Positions 8,330 to 19,734 of a stretch of DNA of 64,000 bases are shown in pieces. Source of the DNA: Candidatus Avelusimicrobium vaccinum. GTDB taxonomy: Bacteria; Elusimicrobiota; Elusimicrobia; Elusimicrobiales; Elusimicrobiaceae. Within the stretch, counting starts at the first letter, position 1, and each line of letters begins with the position of its first letter. The DNA lies in the NCBI GenBank assembly GCA_902794895.1, contig CADBIY010000001.1:1-64000 (forward strand). The letters are read 5' to 3'. The notes under the pieces are model-generated. The model was not told where the DNA came from. It saw nothing but the letters and a program-made list of their open reading frames with translations, and did no database searches. Position numbers and translations under genes: made by a program.

Positions 8330-8335
8330 TATAAT
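8330..8335 (+). promoter_or_regulatory. Probable -10 box of the tldD-like operon
   Basis: TATAAT 22 bases upstream of the ATG at 8358, leaving room for the SD ggagagg. The -35 is weak. Confidence 0.5.
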
Positions 8336-8357
8336 GCTATCCTGGAGAGGAAAAAGT

Positions 8358-10067
8358 ATGCGAAAATTCACTTTGTTATTCATTAGTTTGTTATTAGCAA
8401 GCGCTGTTTCTTTTGGGCAAGAAAATTGTGTGGCGGGGGAACAATTGCCTATCCAACTGATGCAACAGGAATTGCGGCGCGGTTGGAAAACATATCAAAA
8501 GCAAAAACCACCGGTTTATTACTTGTCTTATACTTATACCCCCAGTAGCGAAATTACCTTGGAAGCCTCTGCCAATGGTCTTAAGACGAATTATCGAGGA
8601 GGTATGAGGATCGGCGAGGTGTCAGTTCGCGTTGGAAGTCCCGCTATGGATAATACGCGGGTATTGAAAAATACAGGGGCTGAATCGGTGAACTTTGTGG
8701 AAACGTTCTTATTGCCGGAGCCGCGGCCCAACCATTCTTTAGGATTTCGCCGGGCATTTTGGGAGGCGACCAAAATTATGATTGAACGCGCACAAACGGA
8801 TTTTCACCGGGTGCAGGCGGACACGCAAACTTCTTCTTCTCGGCAAGATAATTCAGATGATTTCGTATTTCCGCCGAAATCCAATTTTTGTCATATGGAG
8901 CCGGTTGTTACGGTAGATGTGGCGCGTATCAAATCCCTTTTGTTGCGTTTATCTAATGAGGTGCGCGGGCATCAGGAAGTTTTGGATAGTAGTGTGGACT
9001 TTAGTTTTATCCAGGGGACCCGGTATTTTGTAGATTCGGTAGGGACGGAATTGGTGACTCCTATTTTACGCATGCGCCTATCCTATTATTTTTATGGAAA
9101 AATGTTGGACGGACAGGAACTTTCGCGCGGTAAAACCTATGATGTATTAACCGAACAGGAATTACCGAATGAAGATACAATCCGTGCGGATATGCAACAA
9201 TCGCTTAAAGAGTTAAACGAACTAATTCATGGGGCAGAGGCGGAACCGGTTACAGTCCCGGCTATTTTAAAGAACCGTGCGACTGCTGTTTTTATCCATG
9301 AGGTGCTGGGACACCGGATGGAAGGGCATCGCCAAAAACAAGATTCTTTCGGCAAAACATTTACCGGTAAAATTGGTCAATTGGTTACGGCTCCGTTTAT
9401 TACGATTGTAGATGATGCCACCTTATCTTCTTTTAAAGGCGAACCGCTGCGCGGATTTTATGAGTATGATGATGAAGGGGTAAAAGTGCGTCCGGTAACG
9501 CTGATTGAAAACGGTGTGTTGCGTGAGTTTTTGATGAGTAGCAGTCCGATTGCCGGATTTGCTGCTTCCAATGGTCATGGCCGGCGCAGCAGGGGGTATA
9601 GCCCTGTGGCCCGGATGGGGGTTACCCGGTTGATTGCTTCTCAAACTGTTTCCTATGAAGAACTGGAACAAAAACTGTTAGAGGAAATTAAGCGGCAACG
9701 CAAACCCTACGGTTATGTGATTGATGATTTATCGGGTGGGTTTACCATGACGGAAACTTTTTTCCCGCAAGTGTTCAAGTTACAGCCGAAATATGTATAC
9801 CGCTTGTATCCGGACGGCCGCAAAGAAGTGGTCCGCGGGGCAGATATCGTGGGGACGCCGCTGGTAAGTTTTAGCAAAATTTTGGCGGCGGCAGATGACG
9901 ATGCTGTTTTTAACGGAACCTGCGGGGCAGAATCCGGTTGGGTACCGGTTTCCAGTATTGCTCCGAGTATTTTATTGGAAGCATTAGAAGTTGAAAAAAC
10001 AGAAAAATCATCCCGTAAACCTCCTATTTTACCAGCTCCGATCAGTATATTAAAGGAGGATAAATAA
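8358..10067 (+). CDS. Exported TldD-like metalloprotease
   Basis: TldD/PmbA family zinc protease, 569 residues. The start at 8358 follows ggagagg and gives a clear signal peptide (MRKFTLLFISLLLASAVSFGQE). The family metal site HEVLGH (His314, Glu315, His319) is intact and followed by RMEGHRQ. The C-terminal half carries the Gly-rich TldD features (FAASNGHGRRSRGYSP; IDDLSGGFTM). Cytoplasmic TldD works as a heterodimer with TldE/PmbA, where only TldD carries the metal. The next gene, starting directly after this stop, looks like such a partner. An exported pair is unusual compared with the E. coli enzymes. The substrate is unknown. Confidence 0.85.
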   Translation: MRKFTLLFISLLLASAVSFGQENCVAGEQLPIQLMQQELRRGWKTYQKQKPPVYYLSYTYTPSSEITLEASANGLKTNYRGGMRIGEVSVRVGSPAMDNTRVLKNTGAESVNFVETFLLPEPRPNHSLGFRRAFWEATKIMIERAQTDFHRVQADTQTSSSRQDNSDDFVFPPKSNFCHMEPVVTVDVARIKSLLLRLSNEVRGHQEVLDSSVDFSFIQGTRYFVDSVGTELVTPILRMRLSYYFYGKMLDGQELSRGKTYDVLTEQELPNEDTIRADMQQSLKELNELIHGAEAEPVTVPAILKNRATAVFIHEVLGHRMEGHRQKQDSFGKTFTGKIGQLVTAPFITIVDDATLSSFKGEPLRGFYEYDDEGVKVRPVTLIENGVLREFLMSSSPIAGFAASNGHGRRSRGYSPVARMGVTRLIASQTVSYEELEQKLLEEIKRQRKPYGYVIDDLSGGFTMTETFFPQVFKLQPKYVYRLYPDGRKEVVRGADIVGTPLVSFSKILAAADDDAVFNGTCGAESGWVPVSSIAPSILLEALEVEKTEKSSRKPPILPAPISILKEDK

Positions 10068-11684
10068 ATGAAGAAAAGCATTTTTTTATTTTTTGTTTGT
10101 TTGTTTCCGGCAGTTTCTTTTGGGGCCCCGGCGGAAAACGAAATGTATTTCCGGGCTATGCAAGATGAAATGAAACGGACTTTAAAAGAATTACATTTGC
10201 CGGGTGAATTAAAACCCTATTATGTGGCTTATGTGATCTCGGAAACGTTTTCCAAGCGGGTACAAGCCTCATTAGGAGATCGTATACAAGGGAACTCGCA
10301 GATGATATGGGAGGATGAACCCCAGGTAGATGTTACGAGTATTGTGAGTATAGGGAATAACCAAAATAATAATACCGGATTTTTTGATGGAGAAAAACAA
10401 TTATGGCGGGGATATGCCCGGGCCATCAGCACCAAGAGTTATGAGGGAATCCGGCAAAATTTGTGGAAGACTTCCAATACGATGTATTTGGAGGCTATCG
10501 ACCAATATAAGCAAAAACAAGCGTTTGCACAACAAAAAAATATTCAAAAAAAATTGCCGGATGTCGTTCCTGCTGCGCAAGGTATTTACCTAGAAGAAAT
10601 TCCGGCCTGGCAACCTTTTGAAGAGGAACAAATGTACCGTTGGGTGGAAAAAGTATCTGCATTCGGAAAGGAAAAGAAATTTATAGATAACTTTTATGTG
10701 ACGGCTTGGCAACAACAGTCCAATACGTATTACTTGAATAGCCGGGGCGCAAAAAATCAAGATTCCAATGTGTTTTATCAGATCAAAATAGAGGCTGAAT
10801 TTCGCCAGCCGGACGGATATGAAGAAAAGGAAGAATCTACGATTCGTTTAAAAGATTTTTCCGAGGAAGAATTAGTGCGGGCCGAACAGGAGATCACTTC
10901 TTTTTTGGATCTCTTGCAAGGATTATACGGCGCACCGGAAGCGGAATTTTATTTAGGTCCGGTTTTGTATAAACCGGAAAGAGCGGCCAGGTTTATCCGT
11001 GCGGTATTCTTGGATGATTTGTCTGAAACGGTGGCGTGGTGGAACGCCTACTCAGATGACGATTATACGGCCAGCCTCTGGCGCAAAAAATTGGGCCAGC
11101 GGATTATTTCCCCCGGTATTACTATTTATGACCGTCCTCATGAAAAAAACTATGAAGGGATTGCCTTGTCTGGGTTTTGCCGGATCGACTGGGAGGGGGT
11201 CCCTACGGAAGAATTGACGTTAGTTAGTGACGGCCGTCTACAAACCCTTCCGTTTTCCCAACGGCCTTTTACTTCCAAAAAACATAAAAGTAACGGGCAT
11301 GCACTCTCATTGAATAGTTTCGGTATTCGGGAAGGATATTCAAATATATTTGTGGAACCGGAAGATGCTTGGACGGACGAACAGATGGAAGAAAAATTAT
11401 TAGCCCGATGCAAGGAATTGAAATTGCCCTACTGCTATATTTTACATGAGAATGGAATCCAGCGCATTTATACTCAAGACGGACGCAAGGAATGGGTTGT
11501 TGGTTTAGCATACGCTTTAAACATGGCATCAACCCGCCCCTTGCGGGATATCCTTGCGGTAGGCGGAAAGAGGAAATTAGTGAATGGAAACATTGTAATT
11601 CCGTCTATATTAGTAGATGAAATAGAACTGGAGCCGCTGGATCGGAAGCCTAACCGCAAACCGTTAATTCCCAAACCGGAATAA
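10068..11684 (+). CDS. Exported TldE/PmbA-like paralogue lacking the metal motif
   Basis: A 538-residue protein that begins directly after the TldD-like stop, with SD aaggagg. The signal peptide is MKKSIFLFFVCLFPAVSFGA. The overall layout parallels the upstream gene: an N-terminal YYVAYVISE strand region and a C-terminal YCYILHENGIQRIYTQDGR resembling the partner's KYVYRLYPDGRKE. Where the partner has HEVLGH, this one has FLDDLSE, so zinc cannot bind in the same way. The inference is an inactive subunit of an exported TldD/TldE-like heterodimer. Confidence 0.7.
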   Translation: MKKSIFLFFVCLFPAVSFGAPAENEMYFRAMQDEMKRTLKELHLPGELKPYYVAYVISETFSKRVQASLGDRIQGNSQMIWEDEPQVDVTSIVSIGNNQNNNTGFFDGEKQLWRGYARAISTKSYEGIRQNLWKTSNTMYLEAIDQYKQKQAFAQQKNIQKKLPDVVPAAQGIYLEEIPAWQPFEEEQMYRWVEKVSAFGKEKKFIDNFYVTAWQQQSNTYYLNSRGAKNQDSNVFYQIKIEAEFRQPDGYEEKEESTIRLKDFSEEELVRAEQEITSFLDLLQGLYGAPEAEFYLGPVLYKPERAARFIRAVFLDDLSETVAWWNAYSDDDYTASLWRKKLGQRIISPGITIYDRPHEKNYEGIALSGFCRIDWEGVPTEELTLVSDGRLQTLPFSQRPFTSKKHKSNGHALSLNSFGIREGYSNIFVEPEDAWTDEQMEEKLLARCKELKLPYCYILHENGIQRIYTQDGRKEWVVGLAYALNMASTRPLRDILAVGGKRKLVNGNIVIPSILVDEIELEPLDRKPNRKPLIPKPE

Positions 11685-11702
11685 TCCAATCCCTGCTTAT
11701 TA

Positions 11703-11731
11703 AAAAATCCCCGGTTGTACCGGGGATTTTT
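11703..11731. terminator. Bidirectional terminator between the tldD-like operon and the envelope operon
   Basis: A 12-bp perfect stem (11703-11714 with 11720-11731), A-rich on one side and T-rich on the other, so it works for both converging transcripts. Confidence 0.85.
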
Positions 11732-11746
11732 AAGATCTGTAAGAAC

Positions 11747-12715
11747 TTATTTTCCCAAGGATTTTTGTGCGATACGTCCAATGAAAGAGGCGCAATCCAT
11801 TTGCACAATCTGTTTTCGTAAACGGAGGGCTTGCTGTTCTTTGTTCTGTTGTAACGCGATTAAACTTTGAATCCAAAGGGCCAATTGGCTTTGCGGATTT
11901 ACTTGCAGGAGGCGTTGGGTAGTTTGTTGGGCTTCTTCTAAGGCTCCCGTTTCAAAAAGCCAGAGTGCTTGTTGGCCTAACAAGTCGGGGCGTTGCGGTG
12001 CTAGCATAAGTGCGGCTTGCAGGTCCAGTAAGGCTTGTGGGAGTTGCTTTAACCCATAACGCGCTTGGGCACTTAAAAACCAAAAATCGGGATTATTTTT
12101 TTCTTCGGCCAACGCCATCGTGATATTAATAAATGCCTGTTCATAATTACGTTGTTCTAAAAAGGTATGGGCATAGCGAGCCCGGTATTGTGCCGGTGCA
12201 GTTGGGTTTACTTCAAAAAAACGGTCATAGAAATGACGCGCTTGCGAGTAGAACCCCATGGCCGTATAATTGACGGCTTGTCCGGCCAATGCTTCCGGAT
12301 TATTGGGCTCTTGCTGGAGAGCCCGCTCGTATAATTGCATAGAACGGGAAGTTAAATTTGTCTGTTGGTATAGACGGGCGGCTTCCAAAAGTAACGGCAC
12401 GTTATCGGGGTGAAATTCCAGGGCTTCTAAATAAGTTTCTAAGGCTTTACTGAATTGTCCTTTTTTCTCATAACTAAGCCCCAGGAGGCGGTAGGCCCGT
12501 GCTTCCCGCCGGCGTACATTTTTTGTTTTGTAAATATAATCCTGAAGTTCAGTAATGGCCAAATCATAATTTCCGTGTTCATACAAGGTACGCGCATGGG
12601 AATATTCTTTACGGTCTCCTGCGGGTGCGAGTCCCAAGAGCCCGGAAGAACAACCCCAACCTCCCAAAAGGATTCCAAGGTACATCAAAAAAATAAATAG
12701 TTTATTTTTTTTCAT
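11747..12715 (-). CDS. TPR-repeat lipoprotein
   Basis: 322 residues from the ATG at 12715. An upstream TTG in the same frame would add four residues inside the patatin gene and has no SD. The signal peptide ends in LGGWGC, a lipobox-like site. Residues about 40-310 are tetratricopeptide repeats (for example ARAYRLLGLSYEKKGQFSKA, with LEFHPDN and QEPNNPEALAG linkers). Likely a scaffold at the inner face of the outer membrane. Last gene of the six-gene operon; its start overlaps the patatin stop. Confidence 0.8.
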   Translation of the reverse strand: MKKNKLFIFLMYLGILLGGWGCSSGLLGLAPAGDRKEYSHARTLYEHGNYDLAITELQDYIYKTKNVRRREARAYRLLGLSYEKKGQFSKALETYLEALEFHPDNVPLLLEAARLYQQTNLTSRSMQLYERALQQEPNNPEALAGQAVNYTAMGFYSQARHFYDRFFEVNPTAPAQYRARYAHTFLEQRNYEQAFINITMALAEEKNNPDFWFLSAQARYGLKQLPQALLDLQAALMLAPQRPDLLGQQALWLFETGALEEAQQTTQRLLQVNPQSQLALWIQSLIALQQNKEQQALRLRKQIVQMDCASFIGRIAQKSLGK

Positions 12716-13658
12716 AGGGCCATGCAAAAAGCAAAATATCTTCTTGTAAATTTTTTAAATTTTTATGGGCTTCCAACACGCCTACCTCACCGGCTTTATG
12801 TAGTTTATCCAGTTCCAAGGTACCAATATCGAGTACACGGTTGGTAAGTACAAAATTTGCCTTTTGGGCGGCAAATTCAATCATGGCGGCTCCGCGCACA
12901 TCTCCCACCCGCAGTAAATAGGCGGCAACGGTTTGCGGAGTGTGGGAGAAAAAGTCAGGGGGGGTAACGGAGGCGATAATATAATCGGCTCCCATAGAAC
13001 GAACGGATTCCACGGGCAAATAGTCTACTACCGCGCCATCTACCAGAGCCCGGTGGCGGTATTGAACCGGTTCAAAGACACCTGGCAAATTCATGCTAGC
13101 GCGGACGGCAATGGCTAAAGGGCCGGAATTAAATACCACCCGCTCCCCGGTTTTTATGTCCATGGCCGCACAGGAAAATGGAATTTTCATATCTTCAAAT
13201 TGGATATCACCCAACTGCTGGTGAAAAAAATTTACTAAATTAGAGGAAGAGGGTAATTTTTTTGAAAACAAGATACGGAATAAACCCATTAAATTAAAAT
13301 CCGGAGAAATATTTCCTATGGTGATATGAGAACTAATGTCCCATAATTTATCGGTAGGAAGCCCCGCCGCATATAAGGAGCCGACAACGGCTCCCATCGA
13401 GGTTCCGGCTACGGCATCAATGGGCAGACCGGCATTATCTAATACTTCTAAAATACCTACATGGGCAAATCCGCGCACGCCGCCAGCGGATAAGGCTAAC
13501 CCTATTCGGGGGCGTTCTTCTTTAGGCAGTTGAATGAATTTCTGCCACATGAATTGGCGCAAGAGATCATCTTCCGTGCGGACCGGTAAAGCATGTAGCA
13601 AGTTGCCTCCAAAAAGAAGGGGCAATATAAGAAGTGCAGTCCGCAAATAGGTTATCAT
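12702..13658 (-). CDS. Patatin-like phospholipase, exported
   Basis: Serine lipid acyl hydrolase of the patatin family, 318 residues. Visible parts: glycine-rich oxyanion loop SAGGVRGFAH (about 57-66), nucleophile elbow GTSMG (Ser87) and DGA (Asp207), forming the Ser-Asp dyad. A hydrophobic N-terminus (MITYLRTALLILPLLFGG) suggests export or anchoring. The ATG at 13658 overlaps the TolC-like stop as ATGA. It lacks the C-terminal barrel of type Vd autotransporters, but the operon has a separate barrel and a TolC-like protein. Confidence 0.88.
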   Translation of the reverse strand: MITYLRTALLILPLLFGGNLLHALPVRTEDDLLRQFMWQKFIQLPKEERPRIGLALSAGGVRGFAHVGILEVLDNAGLPIDAVAGTSMGAVVGSLYAAGLPTDKLWDISSHITIGNISPDFNLMGLFRILFSKKLPSSSNLVNFFHQQLGDIQFEDMKIPFSCAAMDIKTGERVVFNSGPLAIAVRASMNLPGVFEPVQYRHRALVDGAVVDYLPVESVRSMGADYIIASVTPPDFFSHTPQTVAAYLLRVGDVRGAAMIEFAAQKANFVLTNRVLDIGTLELDKLHKAGEVGVLEAHKNLKNLQEDILLFAWPYEKK

Positions 13659-14959
13659 TGTAAATCCTGACCAATGGCCCATTCCAAATCCGCCTTAGCC
13701 AGCCGGTTTTGCCGAATGGCTTCTAAATAATTGTGGGCGGTATTCCAATAAGCGAGTAAGGCTTCTAAGGGGGCAACCCCTGCTTTGGAGGAAGATTTCT
13801 GTGCGCGTTGCATTAAAGATTCCAACTCTTGAGCCTCCTGTTGGCGGGAAAAAACTTCTTCCTGCCAAAATTGCATGGCAGCGAAACTGTTGGCTACCTG
13901 GTGGCGAATCGTATCCTCTATTGCACTGCGGCGTAAGGCGCTTTGCCGTTGTTCGGCTTTTTTTTGCGTTAATTGGGAAGACCAGTTATAGGGAATAGGC
14001 AGACGAATAGCCAGCGAGATTTGTTTATTGGTATCTCCCAAGGTATCAGTGCCCAGTTGCTCGTAAGACCCGTTTAAAATAATATCGGGGTATCGTTTGG
14101 AAAGGGCTAAATCAATCGCGATGTTATCGGCTTCCAATTCGTAAAGTGCGGATTTTAGTTCCGGGCGAAACTCCATGGCCCATAAATTTAAATGAGGTAA
14201 ATCCCAATCGGTTTTAACCGGTTCAAAATTGCCTTTAATAGTTAGGGAGGCATTTAATTCTTTATTTAAACTGACCAGCATAGCCAGTTTATTTTGTTGC
14301 AATTCGCGGGCGGCTTGATTACGTTGGGCTTTCAATTGAGCCAATAAGGCACGCACGCGGATTTGAGTCCATAAATCGGCCGCATTTTTTGAGTTCCAGG
14401 TTTGAGCCTTATCCAAAATTTCTGCGGCTAATTTATCTTTCTGTTGGGCAAATAAGAGATTATTAAATGCTATTTTAATGTTTCTTACCACGCTATTTTT
14501 GACGGTTTCATAATGGCTTTGGGTTTGTTTTAAGTGGGCACGTGCCATTTGAAGGGTGCCGTGAATTCGTCCGCCGGAATAAATATATTGAGTAGCGGTA
14601 ATTCCAATTCCGTAAAATTGGTCTTCGCTTTTTGCAATGGTGCGGCCGGGTAAAAAGCGGTTCGCCACCGAGTCGGAAAGAACCATCGGGTAATCCAGAT
14701 CATAAGCGGTGGCGGTTCCTTGCAAAGCAAATTGCGGTAAATAACGGAACTTAGCCTCGTTTACTTTTTGTTCGGCAATAATAATTTGTTGGCGGGCTGC
14801 TAAGAACTCCGTATTATTCTCTAACCCGAGGCGGATGGCATTTTCGAGAGATAAATCGTCATTTACTAAACTAGAGAATTGAAGCCCATACTCTTTTTGG
14901 GCAAAAGAAGGCACTGCCGCAAAACAAACGGCAAGACAACATAAAAAGATACGTTTCAT
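13655..14959 (-). CDS. TolC-family outer membrane channel protein
   Basis: 434 residues with signal peptide MKRIFLCCLAVCFAAVPSFAQ and two long coiled-coil halves typical of outer membrane efflux proteins (LENAIRLGLENNTEFLAARQ near residue 40; PDIILNGSYEQLG repeating the first-half strand). No adaptor, RND or ABC partner lies beside it. The start has SD aagga and overlaps the HAMP gene stop as ATGA. Confidence 0.88.
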   Translation of the reverse strand: MKRIFLCCLAVCFAAVPSFAQKEYGLQFSSLVNDDLSLENAIRLGLENNTEFLAARQQIIIAEQKVNEAKFRYLPQFALQGTATAYDLDYPMVLSDSVANRFLPGRTIAKSEDQFYGIGITATQYIYSGGRIHGTLQMARAHLKQTQSHYETVKNSVVRNIKIAFNNLLFAQQKDKLAAEILDKAQTWNSKNAADLWTQIRVRALLAQLKAQRNQAARELQQNKLAMLVSLNKELNASLTIKGNFEPVKTDWDLPHLNLWAMEFRPELKSALYELEADNIAIDLALSKRYPDIILNGSYEQLGTDTLGDTNKQISLAIRLPIPYNWSSQLTQKKAEQRQSALRRSAIEDTIRHQVANSFAAMQFWQEEVFSRQQEAQELESLMQRAQKSSSKAGVAPLEALLAYWNTAHNYLEAIRQNRLAKADLEWAIGQDLQ

Positions 14960-15435
14960 TTGGTTTCCTTAGAGGCCGGATTTTTATTGATTTCGGATTC
15001 GATCCGGTCCATCATTTTATTGAATTCGTCCTGTAATTCGGTAAATTGATCTCCTTCGCGCAGATGAACACGTTGGGAAAAATCACCTTTGGCAATTGCT
15101 TTACAGGTTTGTTCAAAACGATATACGGGGCCAGCCATTTTATGGGACAGGATGGCTGAAATCAATACAACAAATAATAAATAAATAATAATTTTATAAA
15201 AGAAGGAAGATACAATAGGGAGAAACTGGTCGTAAATCGGTTGTACCAGCACCGGATACGTATCAAATAAATCATTAAGGGTGGCTGTGAGTTCCAGGGC
15301 CATAATACTTAGCCCACAAAGCACGCTTAAAATTATTAAAAGCATATACCGCAGTTGCAATTTCTTTTTAATAAAAATTGTGCGCCTTTTTAAGACCGGG
15401 GCAGGGGTGCTTTGTTTTGTTACTTGTTCGGGCAT
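14956..15435 (-). CDS. Small HAMP-domain membrane protein
   Basis: 159 residues: a basic N-terminus, TM1 (about 29-50), a short periplasmic loop of about 25 residues, TM2 (about 76-95), then a HAMP domain (MAGPVYRFEQTCKAIAKGDF and DEFNKMMDRI). There is no kinase, cyclase or chemotaxis output domain. It may be a signalling adaptor or a membrane scaffold within this operon. SD agagg is present. Confidence 0.75.
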   Translation of the reverse strand: MPEQVTKQSTPAPVLKRRTIFIKKKLQLRYMLLIILSVLCGLSIMALELTATLNDLFDTYPVLVQPIYDQFLPIVSSFFYKIIIYLLFVVLISAILSHKMAGPVYRFEQTCKAIAKGDFSQRVHLREGDQFTELQDEFNKMMDRIESEINKNPASKETK

Positions 15436-15444
15436 AGAACCTCT

Positions 15445-16176
15445 TTAAAAAGTAGTTACATAGCGGATTTGTAAAATCCGTTCACTTTCGTCTCCACGTC
15501 CAATACGCCGTACAGCGCCGTCCAAGGCAAGTGAAGGGTGCAGATAAAAACGGGCACCCGCATTCCAACGGGAATCGCGCATATTGTGGATGTTATCCCA
15601 TTCCATCATTAAACTGACTTGATCGAGTAGCGTATAGAAAACGCCGGCAAATCCGTAAAATTTATCCCATTCGAAATCAGATAAGTTTACCCCGGCGGAA
15701 GCATGTAAACCGGGCACAATCACTTCGCGGGTGAAGGTTAAGTAGCCCCCTTTCCGATCATCTAAATATTTTTTGGTGCGGTTATAAATGCGGTTGTGGT
15801 CATAGCCGTATCCGTAGCGGCGGCCGTCATAACCGATCGCGATAGCCGGTAAATATAAGTTCCCGTCATAAATTTTCCATTTTACTTGAAAATCGGGGTC
15901 CAATACCCGGACGGAGGAAGAAGAGCCCAGCAATTCATGGACGGCCAGGGATACCCCGATATTAATACGCGGATATACCCCGAAATCAATGGATTCCATC
16001 ACCGTTCCATGATCATAAGCCCGGGTTTGAAATGAAGTTTGATACCTGTCTAATGCCAAAGCGGTAGGCACATCAATCAGGGTTGTTTGAACGCTGATAG
16101 GGTCTCCGTCTGCGGCACAGAGCGTTAAGGGTAAAAGTAAACTGCTTAAAATAATTAATGTAATACGACGGATCAT
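15445..16176 (-). CDS. Outer membrane beta-barrel protein (YjbH-like), hypothetical
   Basis: 243 residues with signal peptide (MIRRITLIILSSLLLPLTLCAAD) and alternating-hydrophobicity strands through to a C-terminal aromatic Phe (RILQIRYVTTF), typical of barrels. PTALALDRYQTSFQTRAYDHG and the strand pattern resemble YjbH-type exopolysaccharide barrel proteins, but I cannot confirm this. SD aaggag. Confidence 0.6.
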   Translation of the reverse strand: MIRRITLIILSSLLLPLTLCAADGDPISVQTTLIDVPTALALDRYQTSFQTRAYDHGTVMESIDFGVYPRINIGVSLAVHELLGSSSSVRVLDPDFQVKWKIYDGNLYLPAIAIGYDGRRYGYGYDHNRIYNRTKKYLDDRKGGYLTFTREVIVPGLHASAGVNLSDFEWDKFYGFAGVFYTLLDQVSLMMEWDNIHNMRDSRWNAGARFYLHPSLALDGAVRRIGRGDESERILQIRYVTTF

Positions 16177-16185
16177 AGGTTCTCC

Positions 16186-16740
16186 TTAATGAATAAATTG
16201 CCGGACATCTTTTACCTGGGGGGTAACAATGTAGCGTGTGTTATGTAAATAAATTCCTTCCCGCGCGGGGGCAAAATCATTTTTATCACGAGGAAATGCT
16301 AAATCAACAATCCCTTGGTTGAGGCGGGAATTATTTGTTACTACCCCCACATTCCAACGGTCTGTTTTTTCCTGGTTAAAAGGTTCTTTGGGGTTCCAGT
16401 AATTGCGTAGTAACACGGTACCGGTGGGCAATTCGTCCGCGCCGACAGGTTCTGTTTTTAAAATTACCTGTTTGGTCCAACGCACCTGGCCTTTACACGG
16501 TCCATTGGTAAAAGTAATTTTGTAATGATCACTATTTTTGGAAGGGCGTTTGTTCAGTTTCGCCAATGAATAGGTGGCATAAGGCTGGCCTTCATTTAAA
16601 CAGGCTGCAAAAATATGGGAATTTATAAAATGTTCGTAATCTTGTTTATCGTCCGTCCGGTTATAAGGCGAATTTTTATGTTGGCACGCAGTCAGGCAGA
16701 GAACGATACTTAATGCAAACCAGGGCAAAATTTTTTTCAT
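16186..16740 (-). CDS. Hypothetical lipoprotein
   Basis: 184 residues. The lipobox LTAC lies at about residues 16-19 after MKKILPWFALSIVLC. The mature part has no recognised domain; it contains TNGPCKGQVRWTKQVILKTE, suggesting a small beta-rich domain. First gene of the six-gene envelope operon, SD aaggag, with a promoter about 60 bases upstream. Confidence 0.65.
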   Translation of the reverse strand: MKKILPWFALSIVLCLTACQHKNSPYNRTDDKQDYEHFINSHIFAACLNEGQPYATYSLAKLNKRPSKNSDHYKITFTNGPCKGQVRWTKQVILKTEPVGADELPTGTVLLRNYWNPKEPFNQEKTDRWNVGVVTNNSRLNQGIVDLAFPRDKNDFAPAREGIYLHNTRYIVTPQVKDVRQFIH

Positions 16741-16799
16741 ACAGGCACTCCTTACAGGTAAAATCGTAAAACTTCGTGCTTCTTAAAAACTACTCTCTT

Positions 16800-16828
16800 A
16801 TTATACCCGTTTTTGGCAGAAATGAAAA
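16800..16828 (-). promoter_or_regulatory. Promoter of the six-gene envelope operon
   Basis: Minus strand TTTTCA (16823-16828), 17-base spacer, TATAAT (16800-16805), about 60 bases upstream of the lipoprotein start at 16740. Confidence 0.55.
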
Positions 16829-16878: not shown

Positions 16879-18885
16879 TTACTTGGGCAAGGAAATAACA
16901 GGCGTTTGCCCGGTTTTGCCAAATTGTTTGATGCCCTCGTCCAGTTCTTGCTGCAATTGGGTAGCAACCGGTTTTAAGTGGTTGGCAGTACTTTCTTGAG
17001 TAGCCATTGATTTTATATCACGTACTAATTCTTTTACAAACTGGGCAGAAGCAATTAAATCATCCGTTAATTGGTTTGCCCGGTCTGCCGTGGTAGGCTT
17101 CACTTCAGAATTTAGTACTTGGTTGTTTTGTCCGTAAAAGAAATAGGGCTCCCCTAAATCCTGCGAGAGTTGCAAAGCCGTTTGGGCAGATCCCGCATAG
17201 AGCGCGCGGCCTTGCCGGATTAAGTCTTCTTTGTTGGCATTGGGATCTCTGAACCCTTGCATGAGCAATTGTTTATTATGTTCTTGGATGTCTCTTATTT
17301 CATGCAGATCCACTAAAACATAGGGAGTAAACGTGTTACTGACGGCTTGTTCCAGTTGTTGATGTTGCTCTTGGGTAGCATCCTGTGGCAACAAGGCAAG
17401 TTGTTGTTCCAGGAAGGCTTGGTTAAGTTGTTTCGTTTCTTCGCTTCTATACGGCCGATATGTTACCCCTGCTGCGTTAATGGTTTGCCTTAACCGGGGG
17501 ACCGGTTGTTGCTCCTGTTGTAAATTTTGTTCACTATTATGTTGGGGCGGCATGGGGGCGGCAATCCAATAACAGGGGTTTTTATCCGAACATTGTTTCT
17601 GTTCCAGCATAAATTGGTATTTTTTGGCCATTAACACCAGGGGATTCGTGCTGGAAGAATTGGTTTCTTGTCCGATGATACCTGTTAAATACGGTTGCAG
17701 TTTATCTGGTTCCGTCCGTGATAAAATCACAGAGAGCGGTGCTTCCGGGAGAGGAAGTTCCACTGCCTGTTCAAAGCGTTGTTGGTTTAAGTTGCGGAGT
17801 TGATTTACATTGGAAGTGTCCGGAGTAGAATTTGCCTCGCAACTATCCAAAAACGGACTTTTCCCGCTGTGGCATCCGTTTTCTATTAAAGCCGGCATGA
17901 GATCCGGAGCGGGCTGCCCTTCGGCGAGTCGTATCATTCGTTCCTCTAAGCGTTGGTTTAAATATCGGGTATATTGAGCCTTTTTTTCATCCCGCAAGGC
18001 TTTGCGTGCCTTTTGTTGCTTAGCGTCTTGCGGATTGGGAAATTTGGATTCTGCTACCATATCAGCGGCTTCATCAATGCTGCGTTGCGGAAAAAGCATA
18101 TTGAACATTTCTGCTGCCGGGTTTTGGCCGGAAGACCCGCCGCCTCCGTTAATAGATACATTGATAGAAGGGGCGGTAGGATTTTGAAATTTTGCCAAGT
18201 TGCTATTGGAATGATTCCGTCCCAAACTATCGGAAGAGCCGTGTTTGGCCGCAGCAAGCGTATCCTCTGGCAGGGAACTGGGGGTGTCTTTGTCAATTCC
18301 TAAGAAACGTTTAACGGGTTGAACAAAACGGGCCCACTTGGAATCGGGCACTTCGTGTTTTTGGGAGGGCTTGGCAATTGGATTAAAACGGGCAGAACGT
18401 TCTTGCTTGACATAACGGTCGTACGCATTATCTTTGACATTAATCTCATGCATGCCGGATGCGCTGCCGGTTGGTGCCGTTTGTGGAATTAATACCCATT
18501 CGTTTTCTTCGGAATCAGAATAGTTAGTAGGATTATATGAAGAGTTTGAATCAAAATCATCCTCTTCTTCCCAATCTGCTTGTGATTCATAATCTTCCGG
18601 CATATCTTTCCCGAAGCGGGCCTTGGCTTGGGTTTCAGCGAGTGCCGCCGAAGGCAATTGCTGATGGGGAGTTTTGTTCTCTTTTCCAAATAAACGGGCT
18701 AAACTTTTTACGAGTTTAGTAAGCGGATTAGAAGTAAAAATTTGGGGTTGTGCAGCGGTTTGCGCCTCTTCTTGAGAAGTGGACGTTCCATTCGTGCCAT
18801 TACCGGGTACCAGGAATGGAAGTAAGAAAAATAAAAGTAATAAACAGCCCAGAACAACTCCAATAATTTTTGCGGTTTTCTTCAT
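16879..18885 (-). CDS. Large membrane-anchored low-complexity protein, unknown function
   Basis: 668 residues from the ATG at 18885; the purine-rich ggggag upstream fits it better than the in-frame GTG at 18894. One N-terminal membrane segment (about 5-27) with no clear cleavage site, then a long hydrophilic body rich in Gln, Asn, Ser and Pro. A DSDS/EEDD acidic tract lies near residue 90-120, and a Gly/Ser patch SINGGGGSSGQNP near residue 240. Several Cys occur in pairs in the middle (ENGCHSGKSPFLDSCE; KQCSDKNPCYWIAAP). No catalytic motif is recognised. Monocistronic with its own promoter and terminator. Confidence 0.6.
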   Translation of the reverse strand: MKKTAKIIGVVLGCLLLLFFLLPFLVPGNGTNGTSTSQEEAQTAAQPQIFTSNPLTKLVKSLARLFGKENKTPHQQLPSAALAETQAKARFGKDMPEDYESQADWEEEDDFDSNSSYNPTNYSDSEENEWVLIPQTAPTGSASGMHEINVKDNAYDRYVKQERSARFNPIAKPSQKHEVPDSKWARFVQPVKRFLGIDKDTPSSLPEDTLAAAKHGSSDSLGRNHSNSNLAKFQNPTAPSINVSINGGGGSSGQNPAAEMFNMLFPQRSIDEAADMVAESKFPNPQDAKQQKARKALRDEKKAQYTRYLNQRLEERMIRLAEGQPAPDLMPALIENGCHSGKSPFLDSCEANSTPDTSNVNQLRNLNQQRFEQAVELPLPEAPLSVILSRTEPDKLQPYLTGIIGQETNSSSTNPLVLMAKKYQFMLEQKQCSDKNPCYWIAAPMPPQHNSEQNLQQEQQPVPRLRQTINAAGVTYRPYRSEETKQLNQAFLEQQLALLPQDATQEQHQQLEQAVSNTFTPYVLVDLHEIRDIQEHNKQLLMQGFRDPNANKEDLIRQGRALYAGSAQTALQLSQDLGEPYFFYGQNNQVLNSEVKPTTADRANQLTDDLIASAQFVKELVRDIKSMATQESTANHLKPVATQLQQELDEGIKQFGKTGQTPVISLPK

Positions 18886-18930
18886 AGTTAACACTCCCCC
18901 TCGTGCAAACGAATTATATTTCTCATATCA

Positions 18931-18993: not shown

Positions 18994-19734
18994 TTAATGA
19001 AACCATCCGGTTATAATGGACCACGATTTACGGATATGATTGATAAGAGGATGTTCCGGGGCATTTACTTGGTCGGGATTTTTTAGCGGATCCGGTAGGG
19101 TGTAACCGGCTTTCCGGACCAGTTCTAACAAATAATTGGACGGAACGGCAAAATTCAAATTCTGGTTATTTTCCCCCGGATAACTGGCAAACGCAACGGA
19201 TATTACTTCCCCATTTTTATTGAAGACAGGGCTTCCGCTGGAACTGGGAGATATAGGAGCGCTAATTTGATGCCAAATAATACCATCCGCTTTTTGGCGG
19301 ACTTGACTGATAAGGCCGGAGGTAACAGTATTTTGTAATCGCCGGGGATTACCGATTACCGTGATGGATTCTCCCGGACGGACATACGATGAATCGGCCA
19401 CGTGAACCGTGGGGAGATTTTTTGCTTCGATTTTAAGTAGTGCCAAATCTACATTCCCGGCTGCCGCTACCGGAACGGCTTGTCCGGATACGCTTCCGTT
19501 ACTAAAGGTAATATTCATGTAAAGGGTGTGTTCTACCACATGGCGGCTCGTAGCGATAAGGCCGTCTGCAGTCAGTACAAACCCTGTACCCGTAAAAGTG
19601 GAAGCATCCTCTTTGACGGCATTAATGGCTACGATCGCGGGAGCGTTTTGTTGGTTAATTCGGATGTGGTCATTTTCCGCGTATGCGTAGTAAGCAGAGC
19701 CTAATAAAAAAACAGTAAGCCAAAAAAATCTCAT
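18994..19734 (-). CDS. Exported trypsin-like serine protease (HtrA-like, no PDZ)
   Basis: 246 residues with signal peptide MRFFWLTVFLLGSAYYAYAE. Catalytic triad of family S1C-type proteases: His65 (ATSRHVVE), Asp96 (GNVDLALL) and Ser166 (SSSGSPVF). HtrA proteins usually continue into one or two PDZ domains; this one ends after about 35 further residues, so it lacks them. No SD precedes the ATG; a perfect -10 box ends 6 bases before it. Confidence 0.85.
   Translation of the reverse strand: MRFFWLTVFLLGSAYYAYAENDHIRINQQNAPAIVAINAVKEDASTFTGTGFVLTADGLIATSRHVVEHTLYMNITFSNGSVSGQAVPVAAAGNVDLALLKIEAKNLPTVHVADSSYVRPGESITVIGNPRRLQNTVTSGLISQVRQKADGIIWHQISAPISPSSSGSPVFNKNGEVISVAFASYPGENNQNLNFAVPSNYLLELVRKAGYTLPDPLKNPDQVNAPEHPLINHIRKSWSIITGWFH

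Follow-up and report, generated by a model that had tools for sequence, protein, structure and literature searches.

A window of 64,000 nucleotides from Candidatus Avelusimicrobium vaccinum (Elusimicrobiota; contig CADBIY010000001.1 of assembly GCA_902794895.1, positions 1 to 64,000) carries a minus-strand cluster of six envelope genes, and the conserved unit within it is a three-gene cassette encoding a TolC-like channel, a patatin and a TPR protein. Judged from their residues, the tips by which TolC proteins dock onto pumps have been lost in the cassette channel, and the patatin is by profile and motif a relative of the lipase PlpD with its catalytic motifs in place. The reading that we favour, and to which we give about an even chance, is that the three genes encode a periplasmic phospholipase unit in which a pump-free TolC homologue would serve as platform or as exit for the products. 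A stronger form is put forward more tentatively, namely that this TolC homologue has wholly departed from pumps and that in a phylum-wide, lipid-processing complex of the outer membrane the trimeric channel would be both anchor and exit of a PlpD-type phospholipase joined to it by the TPR protein. The features of the cluster are as follows, the cassette first.

13655-14959, minus strand: core gene 1, 434-residue TolC-fold channel with degenerate adaptor-docking tips
12702-13682, minus strand: core gene 2, 326-residue exported PlpD-type patatin lacking POTRA and Omp85
11747-12727, minus strand: core gene 3, 326-residue exported TPR protein
14956-15435, minus strand: 159-residue membrane HAMP protein with no output domain, from a family of short HAMP proteins that occurs at many further loci
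15445-16176, minus strand: 243-residue predicted 12-stranded outer-membrane barrel resembling FapF and KdgM in shape; an accessory gene recognised in the class of the window
16186-16740, minus strand: 184-residue lipoprotein with lipobox LTAC; accessory, recognised in the window's family only
16800-16828, minus strand: promoter-like site TTTTCA-17-TATAAT, 10 of 12 consensus positions matched, a consensus match only
11702-11731, minus strand: intrinsic terminator with stem CCCCGG/CCGGGG flanked by A and T runs, by reading and folding

With a 20-bit threshold, the order TolC-like, patatin, TPR on one strand was found at 63 of 72 Elusimicrobiota loci, and at 64 when L195 was admitted at a lower one; as the loci had been picked for carrying a patatin or a HAMP match, these counts measure adjacency and not frequency. 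Gene maps covered 20 loci, 20 across the phylum, the named loci and 20 further ones, and many of the loci show 4-bp overlaps within the cassette. The patatin itself was matched at E ≤ 1e-30 in 210 of the 247 genomes of the phylum; among 101 genomes of the genus and order, 99 had the patatin and all 101 the HAMP protein. The nine loci that do not conform include two of genus g3, which keep the barrel, a phosphofructokinase gene and the HAMP gene and have no cassette there. Apart from L195, the others hold patatin and TPR with TolC absent (L192), a lone patatin of another type (L194), a decayed cassette (L198), a single cassette split across two contigs (L199 and L200) and an unrelated cyclic-nucleotide-binding patatin (L201). 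The upstream flank varies by class, with HAMP, phosphofructokinase and barrel genes in the class of the window and argG-argH in the other, and the core stays constant, often followed by lysA or dap genes. The named loci that share the gene order belong to metagenome-assembled genomes (MAGs) of Elusimicrobiaceae and Elusimicrobiales (L112, L115).

The initial annotation had read the whole cluster as one tightly coupled machine of six genes and had named scattering in close relatives as an observation that would count against this. Such scattering was not seen for TolC, patatin and TPR, for which the coupling is real and conserved phylum-wide; the order of all six genes is not kept on that scale, and a single six-gene machine is unsupported. 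Among loci from other phyla (the best 80 of 576 confirmed, with neighbours judged by our own profiles, so that rarer cases are possible) the TolC-patatin-TPR order was absent. One locus labelled as a Clostridia MAG (L104) was considered as a cassette outside the phylum and set aside: its cassette and gene order resemble those of the other class, so that a misnamed MAG of Elusimicrobiota gene order is likelier, though not proven, than spread beyond the phylum. An apparent patatin-TPR fusion in L060, a 784-residue open reading frame, was likewise rejected when remapping resolved it into two overlapping frames in GC-rich DNA. A plasmid search with one TolC-like query gave five weak matches (20-23% identity), and among the papers listed by literature searches none reported a patatin-TolC operon or a patatin in Elusimicrobia. 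The patatin and the TolC of this phylum-wide three-gene unit, which would act as a complex, each come from known families.

TolC-family channels are viewed as exit ducts that work upon docking of an adaptor at their tips, where a Val-Gly-Leu/Thr motif forms the binding site according to the relevant passages of PMC3391258 and PMC7683400. The cassette channel has two OEP repeats and the complete TolC fold; its protomer was modelled by AlphaFold with a mean predicted local distance difference test score of 91.5, and the model aligned with that of E. coli TolC over 384 residues (VIA-align Z 29.6, root-mean-square deviation 3.8). In these respects it resembles the outer membrane factors of pumps and type I secretion systems. 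To set the tips side by side, 49 cassette TolCs were compared with 24 further ones from the phylum: 20 chosen for an RND_mfp match within about 3.5 kb, and four from the window genome. The turn pattern [YF]xxG, counted without reference to alignment columns, occurs in repeats 1 and 2 of 24/24 and 22/24 pump-type proteins, in contrast to 3/49 and 2/49 cassette proteins. Similarly, the glycine column at the tip is filled in both repeats of all 24 pump-type TolCs and in 0/49 and 1/49 of the cassette TolCs (0/49 and 4/49 in a second alignment). Tip positions carry 1.12 and 1.27 bits of information in the cassette set against 1.98 and 2.17 bits in the pump-type set, while the equatorial region carries 2.40 and 2.48 bits against 2.02 and 1.82, so that the tips are the least conserved part of the former and among the best conserved of the latter. 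Hairpin length is nearly constant in the pump types, at 106-107 and 107-109 residues, but ranges over 81-104 and 77-107 in the cassette set, with the shortest in small-genome lineages. Both sets contain near relatives, and the counts are thus not independent; the pump-type set is a mixture of subfamilies, which would tend to lessen the contrast at the tips.

With a conserved glycine motif in the pump-type tips and variable or shortened tips in its own, the cassette TolC looks unfit for pumps. Consistent with the initial annotation, which had noted a TolC-like protein with no pump beside it, the channel bears little resemblance to a pump subunit, and the unit in the window contains neither a pump gene nor an adaptor gene, in which respect too the cassette differs from pump-type TolC systems. 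At the other loci, the neighbours identified by Pfam were argG, argH, phosphofructokinase and lysA, with an MFS gene in L093. Genes of about 400-450 codons ahead of TolC in the other class were considered as pump parts and proved to be an argD-like aminotransferase, argG and argH.

The channel could nevertheless work for a pump or type I secretion system whose genes lie elsewhere, the chemistry of its tips having changed and the patatin being a bystander or substrate modifier. The completeness of the TolC fold would fit this, as would the RND_mfp matches present in 21 of 22 tested genomes, in 20 of them above the cut-off. It is, however, difficult to reconcile with docking tips that are the most variable part of the protein and suffer deletions, unlike those of the 24 pump-type TolCs, and in the window genome the two strong RND pump matches already adjoin two of the four other TolCs. 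Two genomes point the same way: G116 lost the cassette and retains a different TolC next to an adaptor-like match scoring below the family cut-off, and G140 retains an intact cassette and one further TolC with zero RND_mfp matches, other adaptor types not having been searched there, a limit that also tempers its use in favour of a pump-free channel. Service to a distant pump is for these reasons considered quite unlikely.

The patatin gives the cassette its enzymatic side. When its profile was compared with solved structures, PlpD (5fqu) was matched at E 8e-53 and the next patatin at 5e-7. The window protein contains the catalytic motifs GTSMG and DGA, and across 65 cassette loci GxSxG is found in 62, DG[GAS] in 64 and a hydrophobic N-terminus in 59, the last of which would fit a periplasmic location. 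In a quick tree the 66 cassette patatins form a single clade with a support of 99 by the Shimodaira-Hasegawa-like approximate likelihood ratio test (SH-aLRT). Tree and motif counts exclude L103 and L111, contigs apparently identical to L094 and L085, and the cassette set excludes L194 and L201. The only Pfam domain above cut-off in the 326-residue window protein is the patatin domain, and POTRA and the Omp85 barrel are absent. In a scan of the whole collection, its closest relatives from other phyla, judged on the 80 best loci, are mostly the N-terminal part of proteins of more than 700 residues; of four tested, all contain Omp85 (one below the Pfam cut-off) and three POTRA as well. Second patatins of 670-740 residues in other families of the class were considered as PL-Omp85 proteins, but the one tested, L201, is a patatin with a cyclic-nucleotide-binding domain. 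This fusion (L201:5374-7398), from another family of the class, sits on a long branch in the tree.

The closest known systems are thus PlpD and FplA, PL-Omp85 proteins formerly called type Vd, with which the cassette patatin shares the signal peptide, the Ser-Asp dyad and the nearest patatin profile. Like them, the cassette patatin would probably be a periplasmic lipase at the outer membrane. PlpD and FplA carry POTRA and a 16-stranded Omp85 barrel in one chain, whereas the cassette patatin has neither; in the outer membrane it would instead be partnered by a TolC-fold protein from a gene of its own, together with the TPR protein. The relevant passages of PMC11116518 place the lipase domain of PlpD in the periplasm and report that deletion of plpD raises phospholipids. 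According to the same passages, OMPLA (PldA) has a comparable proposed role in outer-membrane lipid homeostasis, although it is an unrelated barrel enzyme that acts on lipids of the outer leaflet. Among the functions suggested by the initial annotation, lipid turnover is the better one.

Surface delivery, another of those suggestions, found no positive evidence. In its most explicit form the channel would pass the patatin or its product to the cell surface, by analogy with PlpD as type Vd or with type I secretion. The gene for an exported patatin is indeed coupled to one for an outer-membrane channel, and PlpD was formerly classed as secreted, but the newer work sees its lipase solely in the periplasm (both in passages of PMC11116518). 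Nothing driven by ATP was recognised among the neighbours of the core genes, and a folded enzyme of the patatin's size would probably not pass a TolC duct, making secretion a very doubtful explanation.

The proposed periplasmic unit could work as follows. The patatin would reach the periplasm via Sec and, as a phospholipase of the PlpD type, attack lipids in the inner leaflet of the outer membrane. PlpD keeps its lipase at the membrane with a POTRA-Omp85 barrel in the same chain, the anchor that the cassette patatin lacks. A TolC-fold trimer no longer bound to dock a pump may replace this anchor as the platform, and may in addition let fatty acids or lyso-lipids leave through its duct. As a periplasmic adaptor, the TPR protein would tie the lipase to the channel, possibly near the conserved equatorial belt. 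We infer the physical complex, the substrate and the direction of transport. A precedent for a periplasmic partner at the equatorial, membrane-near part of TolC is the TolC-YbjP pair of E. coli, as described in passages of PMC13082787; YbjP is a DUF3828 lipoprotein and neither a TPR protein nor a lipase, and its TolC still serves pumps. The initial annotation had counted two lipoproteins in the cluster. This holds for the 184-residue protein and is doubtful for the TPR protein, in which the lipobox is poor (GWGC, by eye) and most of whose aligned relatives have no Cys at that position.

If the proposal is correct, the TolC fold has a second job, in a deeply conserved tipless branch tied to a lipase, and the cassette represents a split solution to a problem that PlpD handles within one chain. 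The separate, exchangeable parts would make the outer-membrane needs of PlpD-type lipases testable, and the cassette would suggest unrecognised lipid handling in the outer membrane across almost the whole phylum.

The same arrangement could also reflect conserved synteny alone, that is, an old operon with a passive-pore channel and a patatin working solo in the periplasm. Unrelated genes (lysA, dapF, dapA, phosphofructokinase and argH) are likewise conserved neighbours, and the contacts among channel, patatin and TPR protein are themselves inferred. Because lysA and dap genes are kept too, the locus must be old, and some of the shared order may have come about simply by vertical descent; adjacency alone was for this reason not accepted as proof. 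The three genes nevertheless hold together while both flanks change, with 4-bp overlaps in many lineages, and they are absent together at the g3 locus. Moreover, channel and patatin decayed together in two reduced genomes: between intact argH (argininosuccinate lyase) and lysA (diaminopimelate decarboxylase-like) genes, G116 holds fragments of TolC and patatin, and in G189 pieces of all three cassette genes remain. A passive pore would furthermore leave unexplained why the equatorial belt is so well conserved. Synteny alone is accordingly thought unlikely, though it deserves more weight than the alternatives above.

Several observations weigh against the proposed phospholipase unit. In the window's own genus a Gly is found near tip 2 and the hairpins are of near-normal length, strong shortening occurring in other families only. 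Two patatins of family f5 lack the GxSxG pattern, the TPR protein is poorly conserved, and lysA, dapF and dapA lie downstream near the core in many loci. The cassette patatin is missing from family f19, genus g3, most of f4 and several small genomes, and in G108 patatin and TPR occur with no TolC adjoining.

The remaining three genes of the cluster, for barrel, HAMP protein and 184-residue lipoprotein, are lineage-specific neighbours. HAMP lies beside the core at 36 of the 72 loci and the barrel at 33, in the class of the window only. A machine of six parts that includes them would be in keeping with the single apparent transcription unit in the window and with the order kept in the genus. Against it, barrel and HAMP are separated by a further gene in several families; this was a phosphofructokinase in all cases tested by Pfam (L051, L053, L084, L085, L092), and was read as one from sequence in L052, L054 and L089. 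The lipoprotein was recognised in family f1 only, g3 retains barrel and HAMP with no cassette, and in G113 no barrel was recognised at the locus. The HAMP profile also has matches at E ≤ 1e-8 in 18 of 20 genomes of other families, many in short frames, and at nine mapped outside loci the flanking genes were read as unrelated; the HAMP protein thus belongs to a family of short membrane proteins of its own. Taken together, a six-part machine is most improbable.

As the initial annotation had noted, the 159-residue HAMP protein, in which the domain ends near residue 146, lacks an output domain, unlike HAMP signal transducers with their kinase, cyclase or methyl-accepting outputs. In the short-HAMP family an N-terminal KxxLQxxY-like stretch and a (S/F)HxxxGPxxxFE-like motif are conserved, and some families have up to eight matches per genome near unrelated housekeeping genes (L231-L242, L243-L251). 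The predicted 12-stranded barrel, also in line with that annotation, is closest in structure to FapF (Z 18.0) and KdgM (Z 17.5), within fold lists of the best 1000 Foldseek matches, beyond which further folds are possible, and may be a pore in its own right. Its profile search of the PDB gave mostly designed propellers and chance matches, and that of the lipoprotein no significant match. Polysaccharide export, the third suggested function, found no positive evidence; the barrel scores 17.4 bits against the YjbH model of Pfam (YjbH/GfcD exopolysaccharide export), below the cut-off of 24.

All six open reading frames were verified on the minus strand, with the tight spacing first described. Gaps of 9 bp separate lipoprotein from barrel and barrel from HAMP, and HAMP and TolC share a 4-bp ATGA overlap. 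The choice of start decides the other two overlaps: 4 bp (ATGA) for TolC and patatin if the latter starts at the ATG at 13658, and 14 bp for patatin and TPR if the TPR start is the ATG at 12715. Pfam agrees with the identities first assigned to the patatin (107 bits), the TolC-like protein (OEP, 103 bits) and the HAMP protein (31.5 bits) and also names the TPRs; barrel and 184-residue lipoprotein gave nothing above its cut-offs. One promoter and one terminator, as originally proposed, could be located at 16828-16800 and 11702-11731. Immediately ahead of the promoter-like site lies a terminator-like hairpin (16872-16850). The terminator was overlooked by a simple scan and is evident once the sequence is read and folded (-22.6 kcal/mol, z -3.7, 0/200 shuffles equally stable), and it is likely common to the cluster and convergent tldD-like genes.

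These plus-strand genes (8334-11684) encode two TldD/PmbA-like proteins of 577 and 538 residues (Pfam PmbA_TldD_3rd), which converge on the cluster terminator and also adjoin the cluster in several other members of the genus. Both start with apparent Sec signal peptides; TldD and TldE are usually cytosolic. On the other side, a minus-strand gene (16879-18894) encodes a 671-residue protein with no Pfam family above cut-off, fast-changing yet kept in position within the genus, and is preceded by a gene for a trypsin-like protease (18994-19734).

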